Source: Candidatus Aenigmatarchaeota archaeon
GTDB taxonomy: Archaea > Aenigmatarchaeota > Aenigmatarchaeia > PWEA01 > B50-G16
DNA: 15,465 nucleotides
Assembly (NCBI GenBank): GCA_003663345.1
Contig: QMZU01000007.1
Span: forward strand, 1 to 15,465
Reading direction: 5' to 3'
In this document: positions 1 to 15,465 of the stretch, one piece after another
Position numbering within the stretch: position 1 is the stretch's first letter
Layout: each line of letters begins with the position of its first letter
Notes under the pieces: model-generated
What the model was told of the DNA's origin: nothing
The model's input: the letters and a program-made list of their open reading frames with translations, nothing else
Databases searched by the model: none
Made by a program: the position numbers and the translations under genes

Positions 1-120
1 GGTCTGGAGAGCAGGTCTTCGGAGTACTTCAACTTCACACTCAATTGCTCCGAAACGGAGAAGCAGATATTCCAGGTTATAGCCGAAAAAGATACGAGAA
101 ACACTACATCCTATTCCGAT
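1..120 (+). other. C-terminal end of a DUF11-like domain (partial)
   Basis: The first 40 residues contain an FNFT-L-NCS strand followed by a VIAEKDTR strand. They align without gaps with 6037-6156, where the same elements (LNFSMNCS, EAYATRD) close a DUF11-like Ig-fold domain. Only the last strands are inside the window. The match implies that the rest of that domain, and probably the whole spacer it belongs to, lies immediately upstream. The DUF11 assignment is by pattern only. Confidence 0.6.
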
Positions 121-3100
121 TCTATGTCCTATTCATGTGCAGGCGAGGAATGTTCCTCTGAGATAACTCATACTTTCACTGACCCCGGAATGCCGTACGA
201 GAGTCTGTCCAGCATCAACATGAGTATATACCATGACATCTCCACAACCGGCGTGACCATAGGTGAAGGGTATGTCTACCTGAAGGATGATAGTGGAAAC
301 AACAGGGTCTCATGGCAGAACTACAGTTTTGAAAACAGGAGCCTGCAGGTCTACTCATACTACTTCCCGGATTCGGGATTCGTCTCCAGTTCCAGAGATA
401 TTCTCCTCTACGCACACACCGATGGAAGGGAATCCAAATCCGCGAACGTCACGGTTGAAAGGATAAACTATACCTGGAGTTTTGGAAGAGTGTTCCAGGC
501 CTCGAACAATCTTTTCGTGAAGGTGAAGGTTTACGAGTACACGCCGCTCCTTGAAAATGCGACACTGTACATAAATGGGAACTCGTCCAGAACAGTTGGT
601 GGTTGGGGTGAGGAGTTCAACTTCTCGGTTGATGTGAGAGACAGGTTCGGTAGGAACGTAACCGTTTACGCATGGCACAGGGTTGTTGGTGGAGCCTGGC
701 AACTGATCGATTCAACTGTATGCACCTCCTGCCTGAACTGGACGAGAATAAATTTCACCTATGATTATCAGCGGGATGATACCGATTCTTGGGAGTTCAA
801 GTTCAACGCAAGTAATGAGGATGGAGGCAGCGAAATCGATGGCCACATCTATACAATTGAAAGGGATGACGTTCAGATAGACCTGATAGAACCTGCTCAT
901 GAGAATATAGTTAATAGAAGCACTCCCACAATCTTCTCGTCATTACTCTTCGATCTGGATAACCAAACATATCCGGATGGAACCACGGGCAAGATATTCA
1001 TCTCAATATTTGATTTGAATACATACGAAAACTCACCTCCAATTCTGAGTTCCTCCAGTGGATGGTTGAACAGGACGATCACAAACTCCGATTGGTGCTC
1101 AGACGAGAGTAAATATTATCTTGGAAAACACAGATGGTACTCCTCAACAACCGGCGATTCGTACATAAAGGATAATGAGAGTGAAAGGTGGAATTTTACC
1201 CTGAAGGGTGAGTTGACATCAAACCTTCTAACTCCCGACAGCACGGTCAATTACACAAGGTCAGATACAATAAAACTGAACGGCACGGTCTACGATGACT
1301 GTGGTGATCAAAAGGCCGATGTCACAAACTTCCCGGTGTACTTCACAATTGAGCACGGAAGTTATACCCAAACATTCACAGCCACGCTGATAGGTTCATA
1401 CTATGTCTATGAATGGACACCAACATCCGCTCCTCTGGGCTGGTACAACGTCACAATGACAGCGACGAACGTTGATGATAAATATTGGAACGGAACAACG
1501 AAAAGGATAAACGCCTTCTTCCTCTCAACAGTTCCACTCCTAGACAACCCCCAGGACCAACCAGACCCTGTCCCCTGGGACAAGGAAGCAAACTTCACGA
1601 TATACGTCACAGACGAGGACAACGAAACAGCCACAGTATATTTCTGGTTAAAGAAAGATGGTGACTGGGAGCAGAACGGAACCTATCCATGTGTGGACTG
1701 TGACAACCAACCCGTAACCTTTTACAGAAACTTCACAAGAGACGAAGTAGGAACCTGGTACTACAAGTTCAACACAACAGATACCTCAGGAAACATAAAC
1801 ACAACCTCTCCACAAACGATAACAATCCGTCGCCACTACATCTCAATAAACCTGGGCGAAGGCAACAACTCCAACGTCACAAGGGGGGATTCCATAACCT
1901 TTTCCACATCAGTCTACGACCATGACAACTCCTCGATAACCACGGAGATATCCAACACCAATCTCTACACATACATAACAAATGACTCCACAACCTTCTA
2001 CGAGTTCCCAGAATCCAAAAACACAACCCACTACTACTACACACTCACCACTGACTGCACATACACCGCAGCCCAGCAGCAATGGAAGATGAACGTCACA
2101 TCCTCGCCCTATTACGCCAACAATACCTCCTCAGTATTCTACTTCAATGTCATAGGCACACTAACCAATACGCTCGTAACACCGGACGGTGCTACCAACT
2201 ACAGCAAAGGCACGACCATAACCTTCAGGGGTAACATAACCGATGACTGCCTGAACAACATAACGGGAGCAGATTCAATATACTTTAATATTACCAATCA
2301 GTGGACAGGCCAGAACTTCATCTGCACAGGTCAGGAAGAGGGTAATGGGTGGTACAACTGCTCTTGGCCAACATCCGATAAACCCGTCGGCTGGTACACC
2401 GTGGAGATGGTCTCATGGGAAAACTACTATGTATCAACACCAGACAGCGCGAACTTCTTCCTGCACACCACACCACAGGTCGACAACCCCCAGGACCAGC
2501 CGGACCCAATCCCGTGGGGTAAAGAGGCAAACTTCACAGTATACGTCACGGACCTCGACAACGAGACAGTAAACATTTACTTCTGGCTCAAATCACCAAC
2601 AGGTGATTGGGAGCTGAACGGCACCGACTCCTGCACAAACTGCTCAAACTATCAGGTGGTATTCTACAGAAACTTCACAAGAGACGAGGTCGGAACTTGG
2701 TACTATAAATTCAATGTCACGGACGAGAACCAGAACACCAACACAACCTCACCCCAGACAATAACAGTCCGCCGCCACTACATTTCAATAAACCTGGGCG
2801 AAGGCAATAACACTAACGTGAACCGCTCATCCACCGTCAGGTTATCCGCATATGTTTACGATCAAGATAATTCCTCGATAACCACGGAGATATCAACAGC
2901 CAACTTCTACACGTACATTACGAATGACACCCTGACGTTCTACGAACATGGAGAATCCAAGAACTCAACACACTACTACATAGACTTCACGCCCCTCTGC
3001 AATTACACCGCAGCCCAGCAGCAATGGAAGATGAACGTCACATCCTCCCCATACTACGCCAACAACACCTCCTCAACTTTTTACGTGAATGTTTACGGCT

Positions 3101-6100
3101 TCCTTACGAATCAGTACCTCTCACCGACTGATGTCAAGTACTCAGTGGGAGACACCATAACACTTCAAGGTAATATAACCGATGACTGTGGTGTGGAGAT
3201 TTTGAATGCGAACGTGAGGTTCAAACTGGTCACGTCCACGGCGACCTACTACTGCCCTTCATCAGGTTATGTCACGAACACAACAGGAAATCTCTATTCA
3301 TGTATTTGGGATTCAACAGGAAAGGCTGGAGGGGTCTACAACGTGACCATGGAATCATGGAAAGAGTACTATAACAACGGAACAGATTTCTATCCAAGCG
3401 CTTTTAACCTTACCCGACCACCGGAATTGAACAACGCTGATGTCACACCAAACGCTGATGGCTGGTCTACAAACTTCAATTTCACGGTAAACGTGACGGA
3501 CCCTGGGGATACCGTAACGGTATGGTTATGGCGCTCCTCCAGCCCCACAGGCCCGTGGACACAGGTGGGCTCTTCGCAGCAATGTGTGAATTGCGTTGCT
3601 TCAAACGGGACCCTCTGGTGGAATGAGAGCTATACTTGCAGCCAGAAGGGAAGGTGGTACTTCAAGTTCAACGCAACCGACACCGAGGGAAGCACTTACG
3701 AGACCACGACTGGAGATTATCTGGAGAATGACTATTACGATGTGGAGAAAGACCATATTACCTTCACTTATATAAAGGGTAACTATTCAACCACAAATAA
3801 AACTTATCCAGCCGAATTCATACTTCTCCTCAACAACATTGACAATAGCTCTGTGGTCACCTCACCACCGGCAACGGTTCAGTTCAACGTGACGGTGAAC
3901 GACAACAACTACATCATCGACGGGACGAACCAGACCAACTCCTCTGGCTATGTCCACTACTATTTCCTCGCTTCATGTACATATGACCCAGGAAGGCAGT
4001 ACTGGCGCGTTACAATACCCAGCACCGACTCCTGTTATCAGAGCGACCCGAGTCAATCGTGGAATGTGACACTTGATATCAGATGCCCTGAGTTCAACAT
4101 AACACAGGTGAAGGCACCGAGCGAGGCGTTCCAGTACAGACCATTCGGGCTGAACGCAACAATAACTGTCATAGACAGGGATGCCACAAATGTCAATGCA
4201 ACGATTCACACACCCTCTTGGGTATCCCAGCCATCGGACAACCAGTATCTTGGAACAATCCCACAGGACTCGGAAGAAGATGTGGCATGGTTCATTAATG
4301 CCACCAAATTGATACCATATAGCGAGCCGTACAGGATAAACATAACGGCAAATACAACGGCCCCAACCGAAGAAGGATACTATCAAGACGAAAACTATAC
4401 GGACATCACAGTCTACAGACTCCTTCAATCCTCATGCCCGGTCCAGGCTGTAAACGGAAGTGATGTTACCACCGAACTCTGTACTGAGAACAGCCCTGTT
4501 CTTGTGGAGGACTCTCTAATCGCGAGCTGGATATGTCCCGCAGCAGAGTACCGAACTGGAAACATAACAGCCACTGTCCAGAGTCCATCAGGGACAATAG
4601 CCAGATTCTCTGTCTTCAACGGAACCGACTGGATAGTAATTTGGCCAACCAAATCCGTGAGTTCGGACGAGGCTCTCCAAGTCCCGATAATATCGGATCA
4701 GATTGGTGCAAACGGCACAGGGTACTGCAAAGTAAAGATAGAGAATATCGGCTCAAACACCCTCACCATTGACACACTCTACTTTGAAGCATACTACAAA
4801 CCGACCTTTGTCCTCCAGGACATAATACCAATGATAAAGGGTGCAGAAGCAAATGGTATGGAACCGGGCGACGGTGAACTGAACATCACTGTAAAGGTTG
4901 GGAATTCCGTAAACCTTTCAAGAGTAGTGGATGTTACGCTGAACATAACTAACTCCTCAGGTGTGATCTACAGCTCTACACATACTGATTTAACACTTCC
5001 TCCCAATTCTTCCCTCCTTGAAAATTTCACGATAGACACCTCGTCGTGGTCAACTGGAGAGTATGAACTCAATGCTTATGTTATCTCAGGGTCCGTGATT
5101 CGATCCAGGTCAGAGGAGTTTGTGTTTGATTCACCCACACTCTCCGTAAACACCTATGGCTACATGTGCAATCAAACAACCGAAACCTTCAACGTAACAA
5201 TTACAAGTCCCTTCTTGGACCCTGTGACATACAACATTACACCTCTGGTTCCACAGGACTGGTCCATTACACCATCCTACAGAATTGTGAGAATAAACTC
5301 ATCCTCTTCAGTAACGCTTGAATTCAATATAACATCTTCAAACAGCCAGCTGGAGAACATACTCGTGAATACTACTCTTAATTACACTTATCCCGGTACG
5401 CAGCAGAAAGGAAAACAAACCTCCACTTCTATAAAGAATGGAAGAATACCAATACTTGAAGTTATCAGAGAGATACCCTCAACAGTCTCTAACAATACAC
5501 TTTTCCATTCAAGACTCGTGGTGCACAACAAAGGGTGTTACGGCTCGACTTCATCAACCCTAACTGAGAGGATATCATCGGGTTGGACACCTTCCAATCC
5601 AAGCCTTGGTGGGTCGGTTGACCTCATAAATAATATAATAACATGGAACTTTGGTTACATCGGCGTTGATGAATACAAATTTGCAACATACGATGTGAAA
5701 TCTTATCCAACGCTGGATGCCTCGGGGACATTCAGATGGAATCTTACGTGGGACAGTAACTACAACAAAGAGGGGGAGGGCCATACTGTAAGAACGGTAA
5801 AATATATGCAAGAAGACCACATCGAGTTTGATCTGATAGTTTCAGGGTCTTGGGAGGAGCGCTCTGCTGAACCGAATGTTACATACCAGTATCAGTTGAA
5901 GGCAATAAATGTAGGCGATAAACCGACTACTGCAAACGAATGGAACGCCACTATAAATATTCCAGCAGACTGTAACCTTACCGACACAGATGGCTCCTGG
6001 AATCCTCAAACAAGAGAAGTGACGTGGTATCTACCAGCACTTGATGTCTATGATTATACTTATTTGAACTTCAGCATGAACTGCTCCAAAAAGGAGAGGT

Positions 6101-9100
6101 ACGTTTTAGAGGCATACGCCACAAGGGACACCACCTCCACACAGGAATACACTGACGACACTTCCTACACATGCACGGGAAGCACGTGTTCAACCATTGC
6201 CCAGCACACATTCCAGGAGCCGGATCAACCATACCAGAAAATGACGGAGATAAACTTTTACATATACCAGAGATGGAACGGTTACAACCTCACAATAGGT
6301 GAGGGTTCTTTGAACATCTCGGATGACTCAGGAACCTACACCATCATGTGGCAGAACTACTCATTCACCGACACGGAAAGCACTTTCTGGAGAAACTATT
6401 CGTTAACGGAAGACGAGCAGGACCAGTTCCAGTCAAACATACATTCGATAGGAATATCCTCACATACCGATGCGATGCACAACCCGCAGGGCAACATAAC
6501 CATCACTAAGATAAACTACATCTGGAAGTACGGCAAAGCTTTCCGCGACCCGGAGAATCTCTTCATAAAGATAAAACCACATCTCTTCCCGCCAATCATT
6601 TATAACGGTAATGTAACTCCTGGCGTGGGTGGCTGGGGCGAGACGTTCAATTTCACGGTACAGGTATATGACAAAAAGGGAAGGGATGTAACAGTTTACG
6701 CTTATTACAGGCATACAGCCGGACAGCCTTGGAGTTTTGTTGGAAGTCAAACCTATTCCGGATGCACCGAAGCCTCACCATGTAATGTCTCCATTCCCTA
6801 TGATCAGTTTACATGTGGTGACATGGATGTAGATACGTTATTCATGTTCAACGCGAGCAATGAGGATGGTGTGAACCAGACAGCAGGTACGGCCAATGAC
6901 TATTTTGAGATAGAGGCGGATGACGTTAACATAGACAACATAACACCCATGTACAACGCTGAGGTGAACCGCTCTCAGGACACACAGTTCGTGATACGCG
7001 CCTTTGACAGGGATAATCTTACATACCCCACTGGCTCTGAAGGTCTGATTTACATAACAACAACCGATGTAGCCACGTATGATTCAGGTACAAGAGATGC
7101 ACCATTCAACTCCACAGGACACCTCACGAGGACAATGGGACTTGCTGACTGGGGATGTTCAGGCGAATATCCTCTGGGTGCACACCGCTGGAAGGGGAAC
7201 ATCAATGATGGATGTTACAAGAGCAATATGACACCCTATATACCCTTCGTACTTAAAGGTCAGTTATCCAACTCCATATCCCATCCCCTGGGTACAACAA
7301 ACTTCACCCGTGGAACTCAGATTATCATAAATGGTTCTGTTGTGGATGATTGTTCCGTGGATATAACTGGTGCTTCAGTATATTTCAACTTGACACAGGG
7401 TAATCAGTGGTTCAGATGTCCAACCATTGGTAATGCTCAAGATCTTGGAGGAGGGTATTATACCTGTACATTTGATTCCACAGATAAACCACTCGGCTGG
7501 TACAACGTAACAATGCATTCTTCCAAAACAAACTACTTCGATGGACTGGATGTTCAGTACAACGCCTTCTTCCTCTCCACGGTCCCACTCCTTGACAACC
7601 CCCAGGACCAACCGGACCCCGTCCCCTGGGACAAGGAAGCAAACTTCACGATATACGTCACAGACGAGGACAACGAAACAGCCACAGTCCGATTCTGGTT
7701 AAAGAAAGATGGTGACTGGGAGCAGAACGGAACCTATCCATGTGTGGACTGTGACAACCAACCCGTAACCTTCTACAGAAACTTCACAAGAGACGAAGTA
7801 GGAACCTGGTACTACAAGTTCAACACAACAGATACCTCAGGAAACATAAACACAACCTCTCCACAAACGATAACAATCCGTCGCCACTACGTCTCAATCC
7901 TTTATGGCGAGGGCAATAATTCAGATGTAAACCGGTCGAGCACGGTGAGATTATCCACCTATGTTTATGACCATGATAACCAGACGAACACAACTGACAT
8001 TTCAACAAATTATCTCTACGTATACATAACAAATGATAGTTTGAATTACATCCAAGAATACGAGTCAAGGAATTCTACACACTATTACATAGACTTTACA
8101 CCAAACTGCACATATTCCGCGGGTCAACAGAAGTGGAAGATGAATATCACATCCTCCCCGTACTATGCCAACAACACCTCCTCAATATTCTATCTGAACA
8201 TATATGCTTTCCTCTCAGCAACCTTCAATGAACCGGACGGGACCCAAAATTTCACTCAAGGGAATGTCATAACATTCAATGGAACCGTTTTTGATGAATG
8301 TTCCAGACCAGTTACAGATGCAAATGTCTACTTCAACATAAGCAAGAGTGATGAATGGCATAGGTGTCCGACGACAGGATACGCAACACACCTAGGGAAC
8401 GGATTCTACCAGTGTGACTGGGACTCGAGCAGCGCCAACGCTGGCTTTTACAACGTGACAATACATGCTTCAAAACCATACCATTACAATTCGACAGACC
8501 AGCAGGACAGCCCTTATGCATTCTTTATGGACGCGCCTGTTGTATTTGAAAATGAGAGTGTATATCCAACGGTAGGTGGGTGGGGGAGAATCTACAATTT
8601 CTCGGTCTTTGTGACACATTACACGGATGTCTACCTGAAACTCTGGACCAAGAAAGGCGCAGGTGACTATTTCTTGGCAAACTATTCAACAATTCCAACA
8701 CCATCCAATACCTTCATCAACTATACGAGAACATACACATGTTCTGATGTTACGAGCTGGAGATTCAAATTCAACGCAACCGATGCAAATGGTGGTGGTC
8801 GCTCCGAGACTGCGGAGCATGACTTTTACATAGAGGATGACATGGTTACAATAGGCGAATCATATGCCGAGGGCAACGGGTCACAGATAAACAGAACCTA
8901 TGGGACAGGAAGGATAGCGGTTGACGTGAATGATACGGACAGAAATCTCCTTGCTGTGAACCCGAGTGCTCTCACTTACTTCAACATAACGCGCAATGGA
9001 AATGACTTTGTCACCGAAGGCTACAACACCACGAACACCTCAGGTTACTCACCTCTATATTTCTCTCCAACATGTACATATGAGGTTGGACCGCAGGTCT

Positions 9101-12100
9101 GGAAGGTATTTACGGCGGACTACCTCACACCCGCGACCACCTGTTACAAAAATCAGGAATCACAGAACTTCACACTATACATAATTGGTTCAATGGTTCC
9201 TGTGATAACCTCACCAAATGAAGAGAGCTTCCACCAGAAGGACATAGTGAATATAACGGTAAATATAACCGATGACTGCCACGAACCTGTTATCGGAGCC
9301 AACCTTACCTTTGCCATAGATTCCGGGACCCGCACTTACTACTGCTATGGAGGAAATGTGACGGATGAAGGAAACGGAAATTATACCTGTCACTGGAACT
9401 CCACAGGTGCGGACCTCGGCTGGTATGACGTGACGGTCAATGCAACAAAAGATTACTTCAACTACAATGAGACGTTCAAACAGGACACCTTCCTCCTGCT
9501 CGAAGCGGTCAACATACCACCGGAGCTTTACGAGCCCTATGTCACACCGAATCCTGGAGGGTGGGGGTCCATCTTCAACTTCTCAGTAATAGCTTATGAC
9601 CAGGATGGTGGAAACGTCACGGTTTACCTCTGGTATTCCAACAGTACCACCGGTCCATGGAATCTTGTGGATAACGATACCTGTATAAGATGTGACTCCA
9701 ACACAACTCTATACTTCAACACTTCTTACACATGCTCCGATATAGGAACAATGTATTATTTCTTCAACGCCACGGATTGGGAGAACGCCACGAACACATC
9801 AGTTGAAAACTTCACAATAGAAAGGGATGAGGTGGTTGTCCAGCTTTATGGTTCGGATGGACAGTATGTGAACCGTGAGGGTTCGGAGACAACACCGCTG
9901 ATACTGATGGTTAATGACACAACCAGAAACAATGTGTCCGTTGGTGCAGATGTGAACATGACAATATGGGTCACGTATGACAGGATGAACTTTGATTCAG
10001 GAGAAAACATAACCACATTCTCCAATGGCACGGCCACCAGAGACTTCGACCCAACATGTTCACCGCTGAAGTATCTCTCCGGTGTGCAGTACTGGTTTGG
10101 AGGAACATACGGAGATGAATGCTACAAGGATGCGAATTCGAGCAACTACACGGTCAATGTTGTCGGGAGCTTGAAAAACTATATAACATCGCCTCTTGAT
10201 GAGGTTTATTACGATGGAGAGAATGCAACATTGAGGGGCGATGTGAAAGATGAATGCGGTGACCTTATAAATGATGCTGATGTCAGCTTCAGGGTCGTTC
10301 ACGGGATAGATTACTGGTGTGAAGATGTCAGAAATGAAGGAAACGGAACATATAACTGTACATGGAATGTTACCGGGTATCCGGGCGGATACTATGATGT
10401 TGTCATGAACTCCTCAAGGAGCGAGCATAACCCACATACAAACACAACCACCAGTGCTTTCTTCCATGAGATTTACCCCAAACTTGAAAATGTAGGAGTC
10501 TCACCGGGTTCTCAACCTTACGGAACAAACTCACAGTTCACTTTCTCAGCATACGTCACCGATGATGACGATACTGTGAACGTGAGTTTATGGATAGGCT
10601 TGAGCCCATCGAGCCTTACTCTTGCCGACTCGGTCAACATAACTGATCCGATAAATCATCTTGTCCAGTTCCAAAAGACCTATAGTTCCTGTGATGACAT
10701 ACACCTTTATTATTGGAAAATAAATGTCACAGACAAATATGGTCTATCCAACCAGAGTTCTGTTTATACCTTTGAGGTCACAAAGAGGAATATTTACTTC
10801 GTTTACAACACAGGAAATGGAAGCTGGGTCTCAAGGGTTGGAGATAACAGTACGAAATTGGCTGTGAACCTCAAGGATGCGTACGATGGCTCGAGCATAC
10901 TTGGAAAGACCGTCGACTTCTACGTAACAACCAGCGGTTTCTCGAGCGATTACGTGCTTTCAGGAAACAACGGTACTGGCGCAAACGGTTATGTTGAATA
11001 TAATTTCAATCCCGGGTGCACTGCGCCGCACTATGATGTCGGCAAGCAGCACTGGAAAGCCGGATTCGCCGGTTCCACATGCTACTTCCCTGCAAATTCG
11101 TCCGTTTACAATCTGACAATATATTCAGAGCTGTATGCCACTATAGTGTATCCTGAAGGACAGGCCTTTGCTGTGAACACACCGGTACCGATATGGGGTG
11201 ATGTTGTTGATGAGTGTTCAAACGTTACAGGAGCAACCGTGAACTTCAGGATAAAGAGAGAAGCCTCCACCTATATCTGCAGCCCGGACCCGGCCACGGA
11301 CCTCGGAAACGGAACCTACAGATGTTCCTGGTCCTTCAGCCAGATAGGATGGAACAACGTTACAATGAACGCTTCCAAGGAGTATTACAATGATACATAT
11401 ACACTCAAAATAAATGCATTTGAACTCAGAAACAAACCGGAACTCAGGAACCCGACTGTCGACCATCAATCAGATGGCTGGGGCTATAACTACACTTTCA
11501 AGGTTGAATTCCGGGATGCTGACTCCCCATTCGGCGATACCGTAAATATAACAATGTGGAAGAGCTACGACAATTCCACATGGATATATGTGGATTCACA
11601 GAATGCGAGTTATTCTGCCTTCACAAATGTAACCTTTTATGAAACCTTTACTTGTGAGGATTACAAACAACAGAGTCCATATCTCTACTATAAATTCACG
11701 GCTGTTGACCTATGGGACTTCACAAACGAGACTCAGACAGAGTACATAACTCTTGAAAAGGACAATGTACTCATAGAGCCCATCACCTTCCCAGGAATAT
11801 CGATGAACAGGGAGGGTGATGATTACATCCATTTCATAGTTAGAATAAATGACACGGATAAGGGCAACATTCCGGTACCGGCAGGCGTGAACGGTTCGTT
11901 CTGGATAACCTATTCGGGCACAAACGATTATGACTCGGGATACTTTAACTCAACCAACAGTTCTGGATTTCTCAACTATTATTTCAATGCAACGTGCGAT
12001 TACTCTGTTGGTCAGAGATTTTGGAAGGCCGGAACGTATGCCGATACCTGTTATGAGATAAAGAATATGTCAACGCCCTATGATTTCTATCTTTACGGAC

Positions 12101-15100
12101 AACTTAAAAACAACCTTGACCAGCCTCCACAGGGAGCAAAATTCAACGTCACTGACCGAATACTGATAAACTTCACAGTCTCGACCGATTGTGTGGCTGA
12201 GGGTCTCATAAACGAAACAAATCCTGACGTGAACCTTACGAATGGCTTCTACACATCGGATTGTTCCCCTGTAAATGATAGTGGTGATGGAAGGTACAAC
12301 TGCACATGGGATTCGACCGGCGAGGATCAGGGTAACTGGTCCATTATAATAAAGACAAGCAAGAATTACTACAATTCAAACACAACCGTATGGACTGATA
12401 GATTCGAACTCCTGAACAGAATGACCAATGCCACGAATCTGATTGTTACCCCACCAAGTGGTGGATGGGGAAGGGACTATACCTTTAACGTTACGGTCAG
12501 TGACCCTGACGGAGATTTGGTGAACTGCACACTCTATGTGAACACCACGGGCACGTGGGAACCACGGGGGTGGGACACCGTACTTGGCTCAGGAAACTGT
12601 TCGGTAACGGTCAGTGACTTCGATTGTGGAGACATGGGCACAGCTCAATTCAAGTTCGAGATAAGGGATGCCGAGCCCTCAAACACATACAACACATCAG
12701 TTGCCACAGGTCCTGTACTTGGGGAGGATTCTGTAATCATTACAGAGGTATCCGGTGATGGTTCAACTGTGAACAGATATCTGAATGATTACACACCGCT
12801 TACGATAAATATCTATGATAATGATAGAGGTGAAAACGTAACAGGAGCGAATGCAACGATCTGGATAACCTATAACCATGTAACCTATGACTCTGGACAT
12901 TCAGGACAGACATCTTCAGGACTCTTCACGTACAATTTCGACCCAACCTGCTCTCCAGTGAAGTATGAGGTTGGAAACCAGACATGGATAGGTGGGATTT
13001 TCAATGATGAATGCTATGTGGATACGAATCTCTCCACGAACTACACCGTAACGGTCATAGGTGATATATTCAACACTGTGATCCAACCAACAGGTGAAGA
13101 GTATCTGAGGGGCTCAAACATCACTATATCTGTAAACGTAACTAGTGACTGCTCAGATATCGTGGATCCGGATTACATAAACATAACCACAACATCCCTC
13201 AACACAAATGAGACGTTCTCCTGTTCACCGATAGAGGGTTCATCAGGACTTTACAACTGTACCTTTAACACATCCTCTCCCTATCTGATGCCAGCAAGAG
13301 GCTACAATATTACTACTTACACAAATAAGACCCTGTACAACCCCAGGAACTCCACGATTCAGTATATACCTGGAACAAGTGGTTTCTTCATAGAGACCGA
13401 ACCGATTCTTTCAGATCCATGGACCGAACCGCCTTCAGATGGCTGGGGTGTAACATTCTATCTGAAGGTAAATGTAACTGATTTCGACCTTGATGATGTG
13501 ACCGTTTATGCTTGGATAAAACAGGTTACAGATAGGTTTGGAAATCCTGTGTCAGACGACTGGACCAGTCCCGGTTCACAGGTAAGGAGTGGTATAAATC
13601 AAACAGTTTCCATCCAGAAGACATTTACAAACATTCCCAACGATATAGGTACCTGGTCGCTCAAATTCAATGCCACAGATGACCAGAACAATCCGACAAC
13701 CGGCGGTAATCAATATTCCTTTGAAACTACTGTGATAAACTTCACAGTTGAGAAGGACTCGGTTGATATTTTATATGTTGCGGGTAACAACACCACTGTC
13801 AACAGAGTCTCCGGTTCTGTATTGCTTAAACTCAGGGCTGTTGATGTTGATGACCCGAATCAACAGGTTGCTTACCAGCCCGCATACTTCTATGTCACAA
13901 CCGATGCCTCCGACAATGAATCGTGGGGTCCGGCTCTGGATTCCGGCGGAACCGACGATTATGGGAACTTCTCAATCAACTTCAACCCCGACTGTACCTA
14001 CGGTTTAGGTCTTCAGAAATGGAAGGGTGGAATAGAAAACTCGGACAGATGGGAGTCGAAGAATTCGACACTTTACAACATAACCATCACTTCAGAGTTC
14101 ACTCCAGAGTTGCATAGTCCCATCGGTAAGGTCTTCTTAAAAGGTGTCAAGGATGTGCCTCTGTTAGGGAACCTTTCAGATGATGGAAACTGCGGGCTCG
14201 TGCCCGGAGCGACCTATGATTTCTATATCTCACAGAGAAATTATATCTGTCATGCAGAGGGAAATGGCACAGGATGGTACAACTGTACCATTCCTGCCTC
14301 CACACATAACCTTTGGCCGTATAACTGGTATAACGTCACGATAAATGTTACAAAGGAATATTATGCCGATACCAGTAAAAACTTCAGCTATTCATTCTAC
14401 CTTGCAGATGATCCGGCCCTCACAGATCCGCAGGTCACAGGTAGTGGCGCATGGGGGACCAATTTCACCTTTAATGTGACCCTTACGGATAGGGATAATG
14501 ACAATGTCACAGTTTACCTCTGGATAAAGAATGAGAACGGTGACTGGAATCTTATAGATTCTTACACTTACTATGGTGCAACGCCGTTCAACGGAGATAA
14601 TGTCGGATTCGTCTGGACATCCACATGTGATTATGTAGGGACGAACTATTACAAATTCAACGCCACCGACTCTTGGAACTATTCGGATGAGACGGCTGTA
14701 CAGTCCTTCTCGGTTGGAAAGAGAAGCGTCCTATTGATTACACAGCAGGGTGATGGGGATGTCGTCAACAGAGAGGGATATGAGGAGGCACCTCTGGTTG
14801 TGAGGATTAGGGACCAGTTTGTAGGAGAGTACGTAGGAACCGGTATAAACGGTACTTTTTGGATAGAGAACAGAACAGGATATTTCGAATTCAAAAACCA
14901 GACCAACTCAACAGGACATCTTGTATATTTCTTCGAACCGGATTGCTCGTATGCAGCAGGAGAAATAATATGGAAGGCCGGAGTTACGGATAAATGCTAC
15001 GTACAGGCAAATGTAAGCAATACCATAAATGTCACAGGACAGCTCAAAAACAATCTCGACCAGCCCTCTCCCGGAGCAATATTCAATGTCACCGACCAGA

Positions 15101-15465
15101 TACTGATAAACTTCACAGTATCGACTGATTGTTCAGAAGATGGTTTGATACCCAATACAACTGTGTCACTGAATGTGACAAAAGGTGCATATTTCTCCGA
15201 ATGCTCCCCCGTCAATGACATGGGTGATGGAAGATACAACTGCACTTGGGATTCGACCGGTGAGGAAGAGGGTTACTGGTCAATAAATCTTTCTACCTCC
15301 GCATTGAATTATAATTACAACTCAAGCTACTGGCATAACAGATTCTACCTCCAGAACATCAACACCACCTCCCAGAACGCATCCGTAACACCATCCTCAG
15401 GAGGCTGGACCAGACTCTACAACTACACAATAGATATATACGACCAGGAAGGGGACACGATAAAC
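1..15465 (+). CDS. Giant modular, N-glycosylation-rich surface or secreted protein (both ends missing)
   Basis: Frame 1 is open for all 5155 codons, so this is an internal part of a much larger gene; start codon, ribosome binding site, signal peptide and anchor lie outside. The translation is beta-strand-like throughout (alternating polar and hydrophobic or aromatic residues), rich in Thr, Asn, Ser, Tyr and Trp. It carries dense N-X-S/T sequons and recurrent cysteines, as expected for an exported archaeal protein. It consists of about 13 copies of a 315-335-residue A-B-C module in two blocks (541-4080 and 6589-15465), separated by a spacer of CARDB/NEW3/DUF11-like domains (4081-6156) and a lead-in domain. 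I see no catalytic motif, nucleotide-binding loop, coiled coil or membrane helix. The role as fibre, coat or adhesin is inferred from architecture. Halomucin and the giant SPEARE proteins of nanohaloarchaea are architectural analogies only; I claim no homology. The coding call is near certain, the function is not. Confidence 0.97.
121..540 (+). repeat. Lead-in domain, copy 1
   Basis: This domain of about 140 residues precedes the first module of the block. Features seen are a C-x4-C pair (CAGEEC), IGEG followed by DDSG, WQNYSF, a Ser-rich loop, and a closing INYTWSFG..F strand followed by NLFVKVKV. It has its own sequons (NMS, NYS, NRS, NVT, NYT). A homologous domain sits in the same position before the second block (6157-6588) and nowhere else in the window. 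It probably marks the start of each block of modules. I recognise no named family. DDSG/IGEG plus the paired cysteines suggest a small disulfide-closed beta domain. Confidence 0.75.
541..1530 (+). repeat. Module 1 (A-B-C)
   Basis: Domain A spans 541-873 with GGWGEEFNF, VTVYAW, a CTSC pair and KFNAS, ending at IERDDV. Domain B spans 874-1209 with VNRS, TYPDG, a single Cys (DWC) and GKHRW. Domain C spans 1210-1530 with YDDC and GWYNVTM. This is the counterpart of module 5 rather than of its neighbours: both share the FD-x-DN-x-TYP start and the HRW core in B. Its domain C is odd: the two later cysteines found in most C domains are replaced (QTFTA and YVYEW), leaving the DDC cysteine without its usual partners. 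Confidence 0.85.
1570..1839 (+). repeat. Near-identical 270-bp direct repeat, left copy
   Basis: Compared by eye with 7621-7890, offset 6051 bp. I count five mismatches in 270 bp. Four are adjacent (1638-1641, changing a Tyr codon to Arg in the other copy) and one is a synonymous ttt/ttc change at 1722. The flanks diverge quickly: upstream mostly by third-position changes, downstream in sequence and meaning. Recent gene conversion or intragenic recombination is the simplest explanation. Confidence 0.9.
2065..2133 (+). repeat. 69-bp near-identical repeat in domain B of module 2
   Basis: Matches 3007-3075 in module 3, offset 942 bp. The first 41 bases are identical and the four differences that follow are all at third codon positions and synonymous. 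It encodes the QQQWKMNVTSSPYY core. The encoded protein is also kept, with looser DNA identity, in module 6 (about 8113-8184). Confidence 0.88.
2473..3414 (+). repeat. Module 3 (A-B-C), NPQDQPDP subtype
   Basis: Domain A (2473-2781) has NPQDQPDPIPWGKEANFT, IYFWLKSPTGDW, a CTNC pair, RDEVGTWYYKFNVTD and the closing TVRRHY. Domain B (2782-3099) has VNRSSTVRLSAYVYD, a single Cys (PLCNYT) and the QQQWKMNVTSSPYYANN core. Domain C (3100-3414) has ITDDCG, YYCP, YSCIWDSTG and VYNVTM. Module 3 starts 942 bp after module 2 and keeps that offset at several landmarks (RRHY, SITTEIS, QQQWK), so the two look like a tandem duplication. VNRSSTVRLS is shared with module 6 and not with module 2. Confidence 0.87.
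3007..3075 (+). repeat. 69-bp near-identical repeat in domain B of module 3
   Basis: Second copy of the tract at 2065-2133. The differences are four synonymous third-position changes clustered in the last 28 bases. This suggests recent tandem duplication or conversion between modules 2 and 3. Confidence 0.88.
3415..4080 (+). repeat. Module 4 (A-B only, domain C absent)
   Basis: Domain A (3415-3756) has PPELNN, DGWSTNFNFTVNVTD, VTVWLW, a CVNC pair, YTCSQKGRWYFKFNATD and a VEKDH end. Domain B (3757-4080) is shortened in its first half and lacks the VNR motif. It still has TNSSGYVHYYF, SCTYDPGRQYWR and the paired DSCY. Instead of a domain C the sequence passes directly into the unrelated spacer at RCPEF. 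This is the only module here without a domain C, so it looks like the designed or eroded end of block one. Confidence 0.8.
4081..4419 (+). other. Spacer domain 1, Ig-like, unrecognised
   Basis: About 113 residues, starting RCPEFNIT. It has alternating hydrophobic strands (LNATITVIDRD, YRINITANTT) and ends in YTDITVY. Sequons are NIT, NAT, NAT, NIT, NTT and NYT. It has one Cys and none of the A, B or C module motifs. An extracellular beta-sandwich is likely from the strand pattern; I do not recognise the family. Confidence 0.5.
4420..4836 (+). other. Spacer domain 2, cysteine-containing, unrecognised
   Basis: About 139 residues with four cysteines (SSCP, ELC, WICP, YCKV). Two parts can be seen: a SWICP / NITATVQSPSG half, and a half with YCKVKIENIGSNTLTID, which resembles the 'intervening gap in a strand' pattern of archaeal CARDB-type domains. 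One Cys lies in each strand pair, consistent with disulfides. It occurs once in the window. Function unknown. Confidence 0.45.
4837..5127 (+). other. Spacer domain 3, CARDB-like
   Basis: About 97 residues with the strand order typical of CARDB adhesion domains: PGDGELNITVKVGNSV, then VVDVTLNITNSSG, then LPPNSSLLENFTIDTS, then SWSTGEYELNAYV. Known CARDB domains (cell-adhesion-related, found in archaea and bacteria) are about this long and have the 'dG.Y.l.a.v' last strand seen here. No cysteines are seen; sequons include NIT, NLS, NIT, NSS (twice) and NFT. Assignment by pattern only. Confidence 0.55.
5128..5442 (+). other. Spacer domain 4, NEW3-like beta-sandwich
   Basis: About 105 residues. 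TFNVTITSPFLDPVTYNIT, then WSITPS, then RINSSSSVTLEFNITSS and VNTTLNYTYPGT follow the 'w.vtps...v.l..g.s..v.l.v' pattern of NEW3/BACON-type domains on archaeal surface proteins. One Cys is present. It ends in a basic, polar linker (QQKGKQTST) that could be flexible. Family assignment is tentative. Confidence 0.45.
5443..5814 (+). other. Spacer domain 5, DUF11-like
   Basis: About 124 residues. RIPILEVIREIPSTV, LVVHNKGC, LTERISSGW, NNIITWNFGYIGVDEY and FATYDVKSYPTL follow the DUF11-type layout: loss of symmetry in 'v.N.G', 'dtlP.gw', 'i.W.lg.l..ge.....y.v'. Such domains are common tandem structural units of archaeal and bacterial surface proteins. One Cys (NKGCYG) is seen. Assigned by pattern. 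Confidence 0.6.
5815..6156 (+). other. Spacer domain 6, DUF11-like
   Basis: About 114 residues. DLIVSGSWEE, YQYQLKAINVGDKPTT, ATINIPADCNLT, REVTWYLPALDVYDYTYLNFSMNCS and VLEAYATRD give a clear DUF11-like order: the 'N.G' strand, 'v.iP.dc', 'v.W.l..l......y.nf.v.C'. Its last 40 residues align with the first 40 residues of the window, so this domain is itself repeated about 6.04 kb apart. Two Cys (ADC, NCS) probably pair. Confidence 0.62.
6157..6588 (+). repeat. Lead-in domain, copy 2
   Basis: About 144 residues before module 5. It shares with copy 1 the C-x4-C pair (CTGSTC), IGEG, DDSG, WQNYSF, the INYIWKYGKAF closing strand and NLFIKIK. It differs by a longer acidic loop (LTEDEQDQFQ). The repeated placement just ahead of a block of modules suggests a boundary or capping role. 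Function unknown. Confidence 0.78.
6589..7581 (+). repeat. Module 5 (A-B-C)
   Basis: Domain A (6589-6927) has GGWGETFNFTV, VTVYAYY, a widened Cys pair (GCTEASPC) with a third Cys in QFTCGD, FMFNAS and an IEADDV end. Domain B (6928-7260) has VNRSQ, FDRDNLTYPTG, GCSGEYPLGAHRWKG and DGCY, so both B cysteines are present. Domain C (7261-7581) has VDDC, FRCP, YTCTFDST, GWYNVTM and NAFFLST. It is the counterpart of module 1, but here domain C keeps all three cysteines. Confidence 0.87.
7582..8535 (+). repeat. Module 6 (A-B-C), NPQDQPDP subtype
   Basis: Domain A (7582-7890) is almost the same as that of module 2, with one residue exchange, Tyr to Arg in TVRFWLKK. Domain B (7891-8208) has VNRSSTVRLSTYVYDHDN, NSTHYYIDFTPNCTY, QQKWKMNITSSPYYANN and a single Cys. 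Domain C (8209-8535) has FDECS, HRCP, YQCDWDSS and FYNVTIHAS. Its A domain pairs with module 2 and its B start with module 3, so it may descend from a 2/3-type ancestor later homogenised with module 2. Confidence 0.87.
7621..7890 (+). repeat. Near-identical 270-bp direct repeat, right copy
   Basis: Second copy of 1570-1839 with five mismatches. Bases 7689-7692 differ from 1638-1641 at four consecutive positions and produce a CGA arginine codon, a rare type in this gene. Identity ends at the His-Tyr codons closing domain A. A repeat this long and clean is also a place where assemblies can collapse or misjoin. Confidence 0.9.
8536..9516 (+). repeat. Module 7 (A-B-C)
   Basis: Domain A (8536-8844) has GGWGRIYNFSV, VYLKLWTKKG, YTCSDVTSWRFKFNATD and IEDDM. 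It lacks the C-x2-C pair and the acidic D-x-D of the second strand (VTHYTDVYL instead). Domain B (8845-9189) has QINRT, DVNDTDRN, TNTSGYSPLYF, TCTYEVGPQVWK and TTCY. Domain C (9190-9516) has ITDDCHEPVIGA, YYCY, NGNYTCHWNSTG and GWYDVTVNATK. It ends the part of block two that is unlike modules 8-13. Confidence 0.85.
9517..10476 (+). repeat. Module 8 (A-B-C), first of a three-module higher-order repeat
   Basis: Domain A (9517-9834) is close to the consensus: PPELYEP, GGWGSIFNFSV, YDQDGGNVTVYLW, CIRC, YTCSDIGTMYYFFNATD and IERDEV. Domain B (9835-10167) has VNREG, TIWVTYDRMNFDSG, FDPTCSPLKYLSGVQYW, GDECY and NYTVNVVG. Domain C (10168-10476) has KDECG, YWCED, GNGTYNCTWNVTG and YYDVVMNSS. The B domain matches that of module 11 (TIWITYNHVTYDSG, FDPTCSPVKYEVGNQTW) much better than its neighbours. 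Confidence 0.86.
10477..11433 (+). repeat. Module 9 (A-B-C), second of the triplet
   Basis: Domain A (10477-10791) replaces GGWG by QPYGTNSQFTF. It has an all-acidic DDDDTVNVSLW turn, one Cys (YSSCDD) and YYWKINVTD. Domain B (10792-11127) has VSRVG instead of VNR, DFYVTTSG, NFNPGCTAPHYDVGKQHWKAG and STCY. Domain C (11128-11433) has VDECSNVTGATVNF, YICSPD, GNGTYRCSWSFS and NNVTMNASKEYYN. The FYVTT strand and the FNP-x-CT segment are shared with module 12, its counterpart in the second triplet. Confidence 0.84.
11434..12417 (+). repeat. Module 10 (A-B-C), third of the triplet
   Basis: Domain A (11434-11769) has KPELRNP, DGWGYNYTFKV, DTVNITMW, FTCEDYKQQ, YYKFTAVD and LEKDNV, without the C-x2-C pair. 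Domain B (11770-12099) has MNREG, VNGSFWITYSG, TNSSGFLNYYF, TCDYSVGQRFWKAG and DTCY. Domain C (12100-12417) starts QLKNNLDQP and has INFTVSTDC, SDCSPVND, GDGRYNCTWDSTGED and KNYYN. It is the counterpart of module 13, whose domain C starts with the same NNLDQP; the DNA offset there is 2940 bp and includes 20 identical bases at 12162-12181. Confidence 0.86.
12418..13398 (+). repeat. Module 11 (A-B-C), counterpart of module 8
   Basis: Domain A (12418-12735) has SGGWGRDYTFNVTVSDPDGD, NCTLYV in place of VTVYLW, GNCS, FDCGDMGTAQFKFEIRD and GEDSV. Its cysteines are rearranged compared with other A domains. Domain B (12736-13062) has VNRYLN, TIWITYNHVTYDSG, FDPTCSPVKYEVGNQTW, DECY and NYTVTVIG. Domain C (13063-13398) has VTSDC, FSCSP, LYNCTFNTSS and GYNITTYTNKT, followed by an unusual insertion ending GTSGFFIETE. 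Confidence 0.84.
13399..14412 (+). repeat. Module 12 (A-B-C), counterpart of module 9, longest module
   Basis: Domain A (13399-13764) has SDGWGVTFYLKVNVTD, DDVTVYAWIK with an inserted loop, NDIGTWSLKFNATD and VEKDSV. It has no cysteine at all. Domain B (13765-14094) has VNRVSG, FYVTTDA, NFNPDCTYGLGLQKWKGG and no CY. Domain C (14095-14412) has LSDDGNCG in place of DDC, YICH, GWYNCTIPAS and NWYNVTINVTKEYY. At about 338 residues it is the longest full module, mainly from loop insertions in A. Confidence 0.84.
14413..15357 (+). repeat. Module 13 (A-B-C), counterpart of module 10
   Basis: Domain A (14413-14730) has GAWGTNFTFNVTLTD, DNVTVYLWIKNENGDW, STCDYVGTNYYKFNATD and GKRSV. Domain B (14731-15039) has VNREGYEEAP, INGTFWIENRTG, TNSTGHLVYFF, DCSYAAGEIIWKAG and DKCY. 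Domain C (15040-15357) has QLKNNLDQPSPG, INFTVSTDC, SECSPVND, GDGRYNCTWDSTGEEEG and NRFYLQN. The close match of this C domain to that of module 10 (CSPVND, GDGRYNCTWDSTGE) is the strongest sign of the 2.94-kb three-module repeat. Confidence 0.86.
15358..15465 (+). repeat. Module 14, start of domain A (cut by the window end)
   Basis: Thirty-six residues with VTPSSGGW, LYNYTIDIYDQEGDTIN. These match the first two strands of domain A, and VTP-x-SGGW is also the entry of module 11. The array therefore continues past the window. By the triplet pattern, this module would be the counterpart of modules 8 and 11. Confidence 0.8.

Follow-up and report, generated by a model that had tools for sequence, protein, structure and literature searches.

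An uninterrupted frame of A, B and C domains

The window – the whole stretch of DNA analysed, 15,465 nt in length – is the complete contig C7 of the source MAG (G000; 951,466 bases in 183 contigs, 74% complete). Frame 1 is open throughout, with 5155 codons and not one stop codon, and the sequence contains no N; the sole frame of at least 150 aa outside it is one of 151 aa on the minus strand. Translation thus confirms the claim of the initial annotation that a single gene spans the window. Because the window is a complete contig, this gene both enters and leaves it, and its start and its stop lie outside. The following features were recognized, with coordinates in the window.

1..15465, plus strand: internal piece of a giant gene, 5155 codons, with neither start nor stop inside (open frame 1, whole contig C7)
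1..440, plus strand: dovetail with the coding-strand end of contig C27, which bears the N-terminal 2.57 kaa (ungapped, 88%)
1..570, plus strand: end of the first non-A-B-C segment, begun in C27 (no A, B or C match before aa 192)
574..4065, plus strand: first array, domain order ABCACCABCAB, aa 192-1355 (HMM domain map)
4078..6570, plus strand: second non-A-B-C segment, aa about 1360-2190 (gap in the domain map, self-match)
6592..15327, plus strand: second array, A-B-C triplets of about 320 aa, nine in a row, aa 2198-5109 (HMM domain map, alignment)
9493..10476, plus strand: A-B-C triplet taken for structure prediction, three Ig-like beta-sandwiches
15373..15465, plus strand: first part of one more A domain, truncated where the contig stops (C62 opens within an A domain)

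In the window, iterated profile HMMs find 14 A, 12 B and 13 C domains, 39 in total and none overlapping, mostly in the order A-B-C and with the last A domain truncated by the contig end. They are visible as repeats only at the protein level, and a tandem-repeat search of the window DNA returned none. Two stretches stand outside the array, aa 1-190 and about 1360-2190, and the last part of the second resembles the window start, residues 8-626 matching 6058-7929 at 51% in the self-comparison. A weak DUF11 match, below the Pfam cut-off, lies in the region of the first segment on C27 (aa 2372-2456). Positions 1510-2141 and 7561-8192 share 82% DNA identity over 632 bases, with 68 of the 122 differences at third positions, and this internal duplication appears to be rather recent.

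The initial annotation could not assign the A-B-C module to a named family, a view that no longer holds: Pfam Invasin_D3 and Big_7 both score above their curated cut-offs in one stretch, window 9001-12000, and the domains are therefore regarded as Ig-like, of invasin/Big type. Structure prediction, which the same annotation had proposed for these domains, gave an Ig-like fold for the A-B-C triplet (pLDDT 95), and a fold search with this model ranks one repeat of a large adhesin together with FdeC and invasin as its top three solved structures. The model also matches complement and macroglobulin, but these matches were set aside on account of their common arrangement and large rmsd. An NCBIfam scan of the window in three pieces gave no match above cut-off, the A-B-C alignment gave none at E <= 0.01 against the sequences of solved structures, and cysteine pairing within the domains was checked and is not consistent. 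The window protein is acidic in composition and contains 281 N-glycosylation sequons, as against 95.7 +/- 8.0 in shuffles. With the Ig-like fold, the adhesin neighbours and this excess of sequons, the predicted extracellular and adhesin-like character of the protein stands.

The gene beyond the window

A search of the source genome finds the same domains on contigs C27, C62 and C2. The minus strand of C27 carries a 2573-aa frame that begins, after a stop, with MVNKKSMSKFGSIALAGILIPFFLMNIFSIL, a hydrophobic N-terminal segment that, by eye, could be either a membrane helix or a signal helix. Bases 1-440 of C7 correspond to the last 440 of C27 with 52 differences, of which 41 are at third codon positions, and only 10 of 146 residues differ; the frame is therefore taken to be under selection. 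This pattern suggests strain variants of one locus, and since the overlap is 88% rather than identical, its explanation requires either a strain variant or a further copy of the repeat. At the other side, C62 is open over its full length (1667 aa) and overlaps C13 by an exact 20-nt suffix-prefix match, and C13 contains a 2235-aa frame that terminates at a stop but is open on its 5' side. There is no sequence overlap at the C7-C62 junction, where a gap of about 20 aa is assumed.

Two intact homologues, both from Candidatus Aenigmatarchaeota of the window's class, provide a scaffold for these pieces: G020 (JAHLMN010000005.1; 11,262 aa) and G073 (JAOAJH010000003.1; 11,249 aa), which have no masked residues and lie on contigs of 100 and 158 kb, respectively. 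There are no N in any of the frames relied on here, namely C27, C7, C62, C13, G020, G073 and the 20 N-terminal loci described below. On G020, C27 aa 1214-2571 match 1571-2944; C7 aa 2-1347 match 2799-4177 and aa 2019-5155 match 3821-7024; C62, beginning near 7045, matches 7050-8715 with aa 6-1665; and C13, beginning near 8711, matches 8722-9964 with aa 12-1231 and 9711-11259 with aa 636-2233. The stretch from the C7 beginning at 2799 to the C27 end at 2944 corresponds to the 146 aa of the overlap. C7 has several alternative matches owing to its repeats, and the highest-scoring single one (aa 590-5154 to 1378-6019, 2397 bits) does not end beside C62. The window's gene has two non-A-B-C segments versus one in the homologue, that is, one extra block; this and the repeats would explain the discrepancy, the placement of C7 having been chosen in part to fit.

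We conclude that C62 and C13 most likely continue the window's gene, and that the four contigs fit the intact homologues in the order C27, C7, C62, C13, giving a protein of probably about 11,500 aa (the sum of the four pieces, less overlaps, plus the assumed gap of about 20 aa). One giant-type N-terminus and two ATPase ends were found in the 74% complete source genome, and one of these ends closes a complete 2915-aa gene on C2; this agrees with the joined gene. That the assembler instead fused several shorter genes or repeat copies, a possibility raised in the initial annotation, is very improbable and already contradicted: the MAG is in 183 contigs, repeats are present and the C27-C7 overlap is at 88%, but the window has 5155 codons without stop or frameshift and a third-position bias, and homologous frames of 11,262 and 11,249 aa free of masked residues lie on 100- and 158-kb contigs of other assemblies.

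HerA-like ATPases are encoded on both C13 and C2 of the source genome. The C13 frame has Pfam matches above cut-off to NPCBM_assoc (41.8 bits), DUF87 (41.9) and HerA_C (24.8), with a hydrophobic helix before the ATPase there and in the homologues (the helix by reading). Its motifs are GATGSGKS (Walker A) and VYDEVHRLL (Walker B); six homologous ends are 38-46% identical to C13, and all seven aligned ends have the same key residues, TG.GK in Walker A and V.DEVH in Walker B. When a 400-aa ATPase profile was compared with 177,635 distinct solved sequences there were eight matches, five named as HerA, HerA-like or HerA-domain proteins and one each as DUF87, DNA helicase and ATP-binding protein; the nearest is HerA 4d2i (E 6.4e-12), and neither VirB4 nor TraG is among the eight names. 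TrwB_AAD_bind and T4SS-DNA_transf match two homologous C-termini weakly, below the Pfam cut-off. ResIII is above cut-off on the end of G001 (JAGGZI010000034.1, a Candidatus Aenigmatarchaeota of the window's order; 5.9e-5), below it on the C2 end (0.02) and not listed for C13, and DUF87 fits the ResIII-matched P-loop far better. An N-terminal HAS barrel is a feature of HerA, and because the Pfam tables of the C-termini contain no match to it, the ATPase is classed as HerA-like and not as HerA. Structure prediction of the final 900 aa gave a low-confidence model (mean pLDDT 68.5), with helices at its residues 832-899; the best 50 matches of its fold search are mainly beta-sandwich and other proteins and include no ATPase of this kind, and we take this search to carry no information on the ATPase.

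The initial annotation's statement that there is no recognized enzymatic part therefore holds for the window and fails for the gene, whose probable 3' end on C13 encodes this ATPase. Of the flanking elements it had named, the N-terminus is found on C27 and a probable stop and C-terminal helix on C13; PGF-CTERM or LPXTG anchors do not form the ends, the homologous proteins ending instead in a hydrophobic helix and a cytosolic-type ATPase. Three genes follow the ATPase on C13, recognized through weak Pfam matches:

C13 (L063) 6674-10115: zinc-finger/coiled-coil protein of 130 aa, coiled coil of 562 aa with a SHOCT-like end, and NEW3-type protein of 443 aa

No second ATPase or PF03135 is present among these three. 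Similar coiled-coil genes lie downstream of the giant gene in G020, G073, G032 and G033 (by reading).

An overlapping partner gene and the distribution of relatives

A profile of the N-terminus matches 30 of 155 class genomes (counts of class genomes here include the window's own), and 20 loci with E below 1e-15, one per genome, were surveyed for neighbouring genes. In 18 of them an upstream partner gene runs past the earliest start codon available to the giant frame before reaching its own stop. Counted from that codon, from which true starts may differ, the overlap is 8 nt long in 11 loci and 11 nt in another five, with 17 or 23 nt in the remaining two; G028 has a different upstream gene. 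All 18 partners have a hydrophobic helix and a common C-terminal motif (by reading), and of two scanned with Pfam, one contains a NEW3-type domain. In the source genome, C27 holds 38 bases before the giant frame, and the frame through them yields SDIGEKNFGVVLSYGK as its tail and then stops, overlapping the giant frame by 11 nt. With a matrix of the 18 tails this tail ranks first among 55,409 distinct frame ends from the loci collected, at a score (14.9) well below those of the in-sample partners (22-35). The window's genome thus has a short overlapping upstream frame whose end matches the conserved membrane partner.

An N-terminal winged helix is found in eight of the 18 partners and was not detected in the other ten, and is therefore not a required part. 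Pfam matches on two of the winged-helix partners (HTH_11, 4.1e-7; HTH_IclR, 1.2e-4) support G020 and G065. Six of the eight positive partners are among the 11 typed segments on which the winged-helix HMM was trained, which makes its E-values for those six circular; G032 and G138 are outside the training set. For the G078 partner, which is not among the eight, Pfam finds nothing. The giant frames of G113 and G111 themselves begin with a winged helix; one read by eye at the same place in G033 was not counted, having no Pfam domain and not being listed there by the partner profile. A second winged-helix gene is located upstream on the opposite strand at 10 of the 20 loci, mostly as weak matches. 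Among 43 proteins (42 matches plus the window) no chain has both a winged helix and an ATPase, one having the former and 15 the latter; this set includes many partial records, from a search that scored 1206 candidates sharing most words, about 2.8-9.0 kaa in length. Two 9.16-kaa frames with winged-helix matches in G029 were rejected, because the parts examined consist of masked N that translate without a stop; G058 and parts of G141 contain masked stretches as well, and tabulated frame lengths can be inflated by them.

Many giant and partner proteins (L163-L182) start with a short GQ(S/T/V)(Q/E)(L/I)-like motif before the hydrophobic helix, which recalls archaeal pilin-type signal peptides and is not present in the window's gene. 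We found no published description of the upstream partner gene in a search with preprints and most subscription papers outside its range, and the terms 'helix-turn-helix' and 'winged' are absent from the main text of PMC10266531 and PMC6642349.

Of 145 genomes, the window's own included, 44 contain a match to a 1500-aa stretch of the window. The ATPase profile matches 55 of 156 class genomes at E <= 1e-40, and each matched genome has between one and three ATPase ends. Frames containing the ATPase reach 11,262 aa; masked stretches may have lengthened some of the tabulated frames, though not the G020 and G073 ones. The window stretch found no relative among the contigs of a named collection; the ATPase alignment did, with 264 stretches encoding a relative. 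The best 80 of these 264 yield 85 ATPase frames, 27 of which have A, B or C matches in the same frame (C matches only in four) and are titled Aenigmatarchaeota (11), Micrarchaeota, Nanohaloarchaea, Altiarchaeota, Woesearchaeota and others. Many of the other ATPase frames are shortened by contig ends.

A tree of 85 of 86 ATPase domains (one, under 330 aa, was left out) is split into 25 and 60 rows by a branch of 0.48 with support 100/100. The 25-row side consists mostly of Woesearchaeota and Nanoarchaeota, with complete frames mostly of about 1240-1470 aa, and the 60-row side includes all labelled A-B-C members. In the complete frames of the Woesearchaeota and Nanoarchaeota loci L102-L140 the ATPase lies mostly at residues 600-1000 and there are no A, B or C matches; these frames would represent a short relative without the giant ectodomain. 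The A-B-C label does not form one clade, 19 changes being needed; its absence is uninformative because many frames are cut by contig ends, and the mixing of phyla is not taken as transfer because record titles may be misassigned.

The second family member in the source genome, on C2 (L018, 2454-11198, minus strand), is complete at 2915 aa and has a few A, B or C domains, a hydrophobic helix and a HerA-like ATPase. Its N-terminal beta-propeller matches Beta-prop_ACSF4 (2.8e-22, below cut-off) and Beta-prop_CGLA (1.3e-16, above cut-off), and in layout it is closer than the window's gene to the nanohaloarchaeal giant proteins. Adjoining genes (11459-14773 and 14806-17928, minus strand) encode proteins of 1105 and 1041 aa; both look hydrophobic at the N- and C-terminal ends when read by eye, and Pfam gives nothing informative for either. 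A 6497-aa frame on G033:C2 (L051) contains an intein/Hint-like stretch shortly after its N-terminal hydrophobic helix (Intein_splicing E 0.0054, below cut-off).

Possible function and relationship to known giant proteins

The open frame, the domain array, the ordered matches on homologues, the C13 ATPase motifs and the overlapping upstream frame are observed. The interpretation that we consider probable, by a modest measure, is that the window is an internal part of a giant membrane-anchored DPANN surface protein that combines a contact stalk with an ATP-driven transport motor, with DNA as the slightly favoured cargo. The gene would extend over four contigs of one MAG, C27 (with the N-terminal hydrophobic helix), C7, C62 and C13, the last supplying the C-terminal hydrophobic helix, the HerA-like ATPase and a putative helical tail. 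Outside the cell, roughly 10,000 residues of glycosylated Ig-like domains would make up a stalk or loop that holds on to a host or neighbouring cell, both ends of the chain passing through the membrane into the cytosol. There the ATPases might come together as a ring and, where the cells touch, move a polymer through the membrane. The cargo is possibly DNA, placed slightly ahead of protein because the motor is nearest to HerA-type DNA translocases, a DNA-binding-type winged helix occurs in the partner in part of the class, and PF03135 was not found in the 155 class genomes scanned. Cleavage, with which published gel data on a related protein are compatible (see below; PMC6642349, in its available part), would uncouple stalk from motor and counts against this reading.

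The published view of the nanohaloarchaeal proteins as an adhesive 'straw' (PMC10266531), in which protein effectors pass into the host by a type IV secretion-like channel energized by a VirB4/TraG-like ATPase, is a serious competitor that we nevertheless think doubtful for the window's gene. The nanohaloarchaeal SVXNc_0300 and BNXNv_0298 share its order of Ig array, membrane helix, ATPase and putative coiled coil, as far as the consulted part of that paper goes, and the weak TrwB_AAD_bind and T4SS-DNA_transf matches point the same way. However, the nearest solved relatives of the ATPase are HerA-like, the three genes after it on C13 include no second ATPase, and PF03135 (the VirB4 N-terminal domain) matches none of 155 class genomes, the window's own included. 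This profile may miss archaeal VirB4 forms, since among 14 known control genomes, which included no nanohaloarchaeon with the reported gene, it matched only one, a bacterium. We favour a HerA-like translocation motor over a type IV secretion straw because the PF03135 neighbour has no counterpart in the class genomes.

It is unlikely, in our estimation, that the protein is a contact sensor in which stretching or binding of the stalk alters the ATPase or frees the winged-helix partner to switch genes on. The overlapping membrane partner with its winged helix in eight of 18 loci, the winged helices that open the giant frames of G113 and G111, and the mostly weak second winged-helix gene at 10 of 20 loci would all suit such a role, but ten of the 18 partners have no detected winged helix, and a translocase-type ATPase is needless for sensing. 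A purely structural coat or S-layer-like fibre, with the ATPase serving assembly or export of the chain itself, is rather improbable: the very high sequon density and acidic composition fit it, as do the Ig-like repeat arrays that form fibres in the structurally neighbouring bacterial giant adhesins, but the invariant key residues in seven aligned ATPase ends argue for use of the enzyme, and one to three ATPase ends per matched genome are few for a coat.

A bolder extension of the stalk-and-motor reading, which we consider unlikely as a whole, is a two-protein DPANN contact machine: a chain anchored at both ends with an extracellular loop of about 10,000 residues, one end of which bears a DNA-translocase-type motor and the other a DNA-binding winged helix (in the overlapping partner or fused to the chain), and which would sense or grip the host and move DNA between cells. 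These readings touch on the open question of how ultra-small DPANN archaea attach to hosts and exchange material, and a partner gene that partly bears a DNA-binding-type domain, together with the failure to find PF03135, makes the substrate of the motor a directly testable question.

Several known systems invite comparison. Bacterial giant adhesins, invasin and FdeC (6xi3, 4e9l, 1cwv, 5irb) resemble the A-B-C domains at 10-15% sequence identity and, to our knowledge, have no cytosolic motor domain. Known for hexameric rings and DNA translocation, HerA-type ATPases (4d2i and relatives) have in common with the giant gene DUF87/HerA_C, Walker A and B, and the nearest solved sequences; the ATPase here differs in being at the end of a giant surface protein and in having no HAS-barrel match. 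Halomucin is a secreted, mucin-like protein in which we know of no ATPase. At 9,159 aa, the Halomucin of Haloquadratum walsbyi is likewise an archaeal extracellular giant protein (PMC4378361, in part).

Closest are the giant DPANN surface ATPases, of which SVXNc_0300 (9,409 aa) and BNXNv_0298 (8,880 aa) of Ca. Nanohalococcus and Nanohalovita share a hydrophobic N-terminus, a very long Ig-like array, a membrane helix, a cytosolic P-loop ATPase of HerA/VirB4 kind and probably a C-terminal helical tail (available part of PMC10266531). The long Ig-like array is represented in the window by 39 domains of Ig-like fold, and a C-terminal membrane helix followed by an ATPase would be present if C13 is the 3' end of the window's gene. 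For the N-terminal Sec signal peptide of this family the hydrophobic segment read by eye on C27 is a candidate, and for its coiled-coil tail the helices in the low-confidence model. That gene differs in its inferred length (about 11,500 aa), its origin in Aenigmatarchaeota, the absence of a beta-propeller in Pfam scans and of a second ATPase among three downstream C13 genes, and an overlapping upstream partner, of which the available part of PMC10266531 makes no mention. In the secretion straw proposed for Nanohaloarchaeota, a neighbouring PF03135 ATPase is one support rather than a strict family definition (PMC10266531, in part), and one order of that phylum is described as having no frames over 9000 nt (PMC9563170, in part).

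Another close system is that of the SPEARE proteins, described by Hamm 2019 with up to 8,553 aa from Ca. Nanohaloarchaeum antarcticus and Nanopetramus SG9 (PMC6642349, in part, as for the following points). The 2019 description gives them at least one laminin-G domain. They share a giant extracellular part, a membrane helix near the C-terminus and a conserved intracellular part, and related intracellular parts were noted in Woesearchaeota, Aenigmarchaeota, Micrarchaeota and Altiarchaeales; their extracellular and cytoplasmic peptides were in different gel fractions, which is compatible with cleavage. The restriction-enzyme and serine protease domains claimed in 2019 rested on structure modelling, and SPEARE have since been re-described as giant Ig-like proteins with an ATPase, of 9,409 aa at most, with an ATPase argued for their intracellular part too (available part of PMC10266531). 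In the window's gene the intracellular part is an ATPase, and laminin-G and protease were not found by Pfam. For laminin-G the scans covered C27 (E <= 0.1), the window in four pieces (E <= 1 and 0.05), and C62 and C13 (E <= 0.05), to the exclusion of domains at piece borders and about 20 aa between contigs; no protease family is listed for C27, the window, C62 or C13.

The kind of architecture, as read from these parts, is thus already known, being that of the giant SPEARE proteins of Nanohaloarchaeota. Within the literature searched, and as far as the searches show, what is new is the lack of detected laminin-G or VirB4 features, the overlapping partner with a winged helix in part of the class, the regular A-B-C module, and the size, with 11,262 aa in an intact frame and an inferred figure of about 11,500 aa. 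An architecture described for salt-loving Nanohaloarchaeota has now been followed, with its repeat module and motor, into Aenigmatarchaeota and into MAGs titled as several other DPANN phyla, and the intact 11,262 aa exceeds the 9,409 aa given in 2023 for the largest protein of any cultivated archaeon (PMC10266531, in part).
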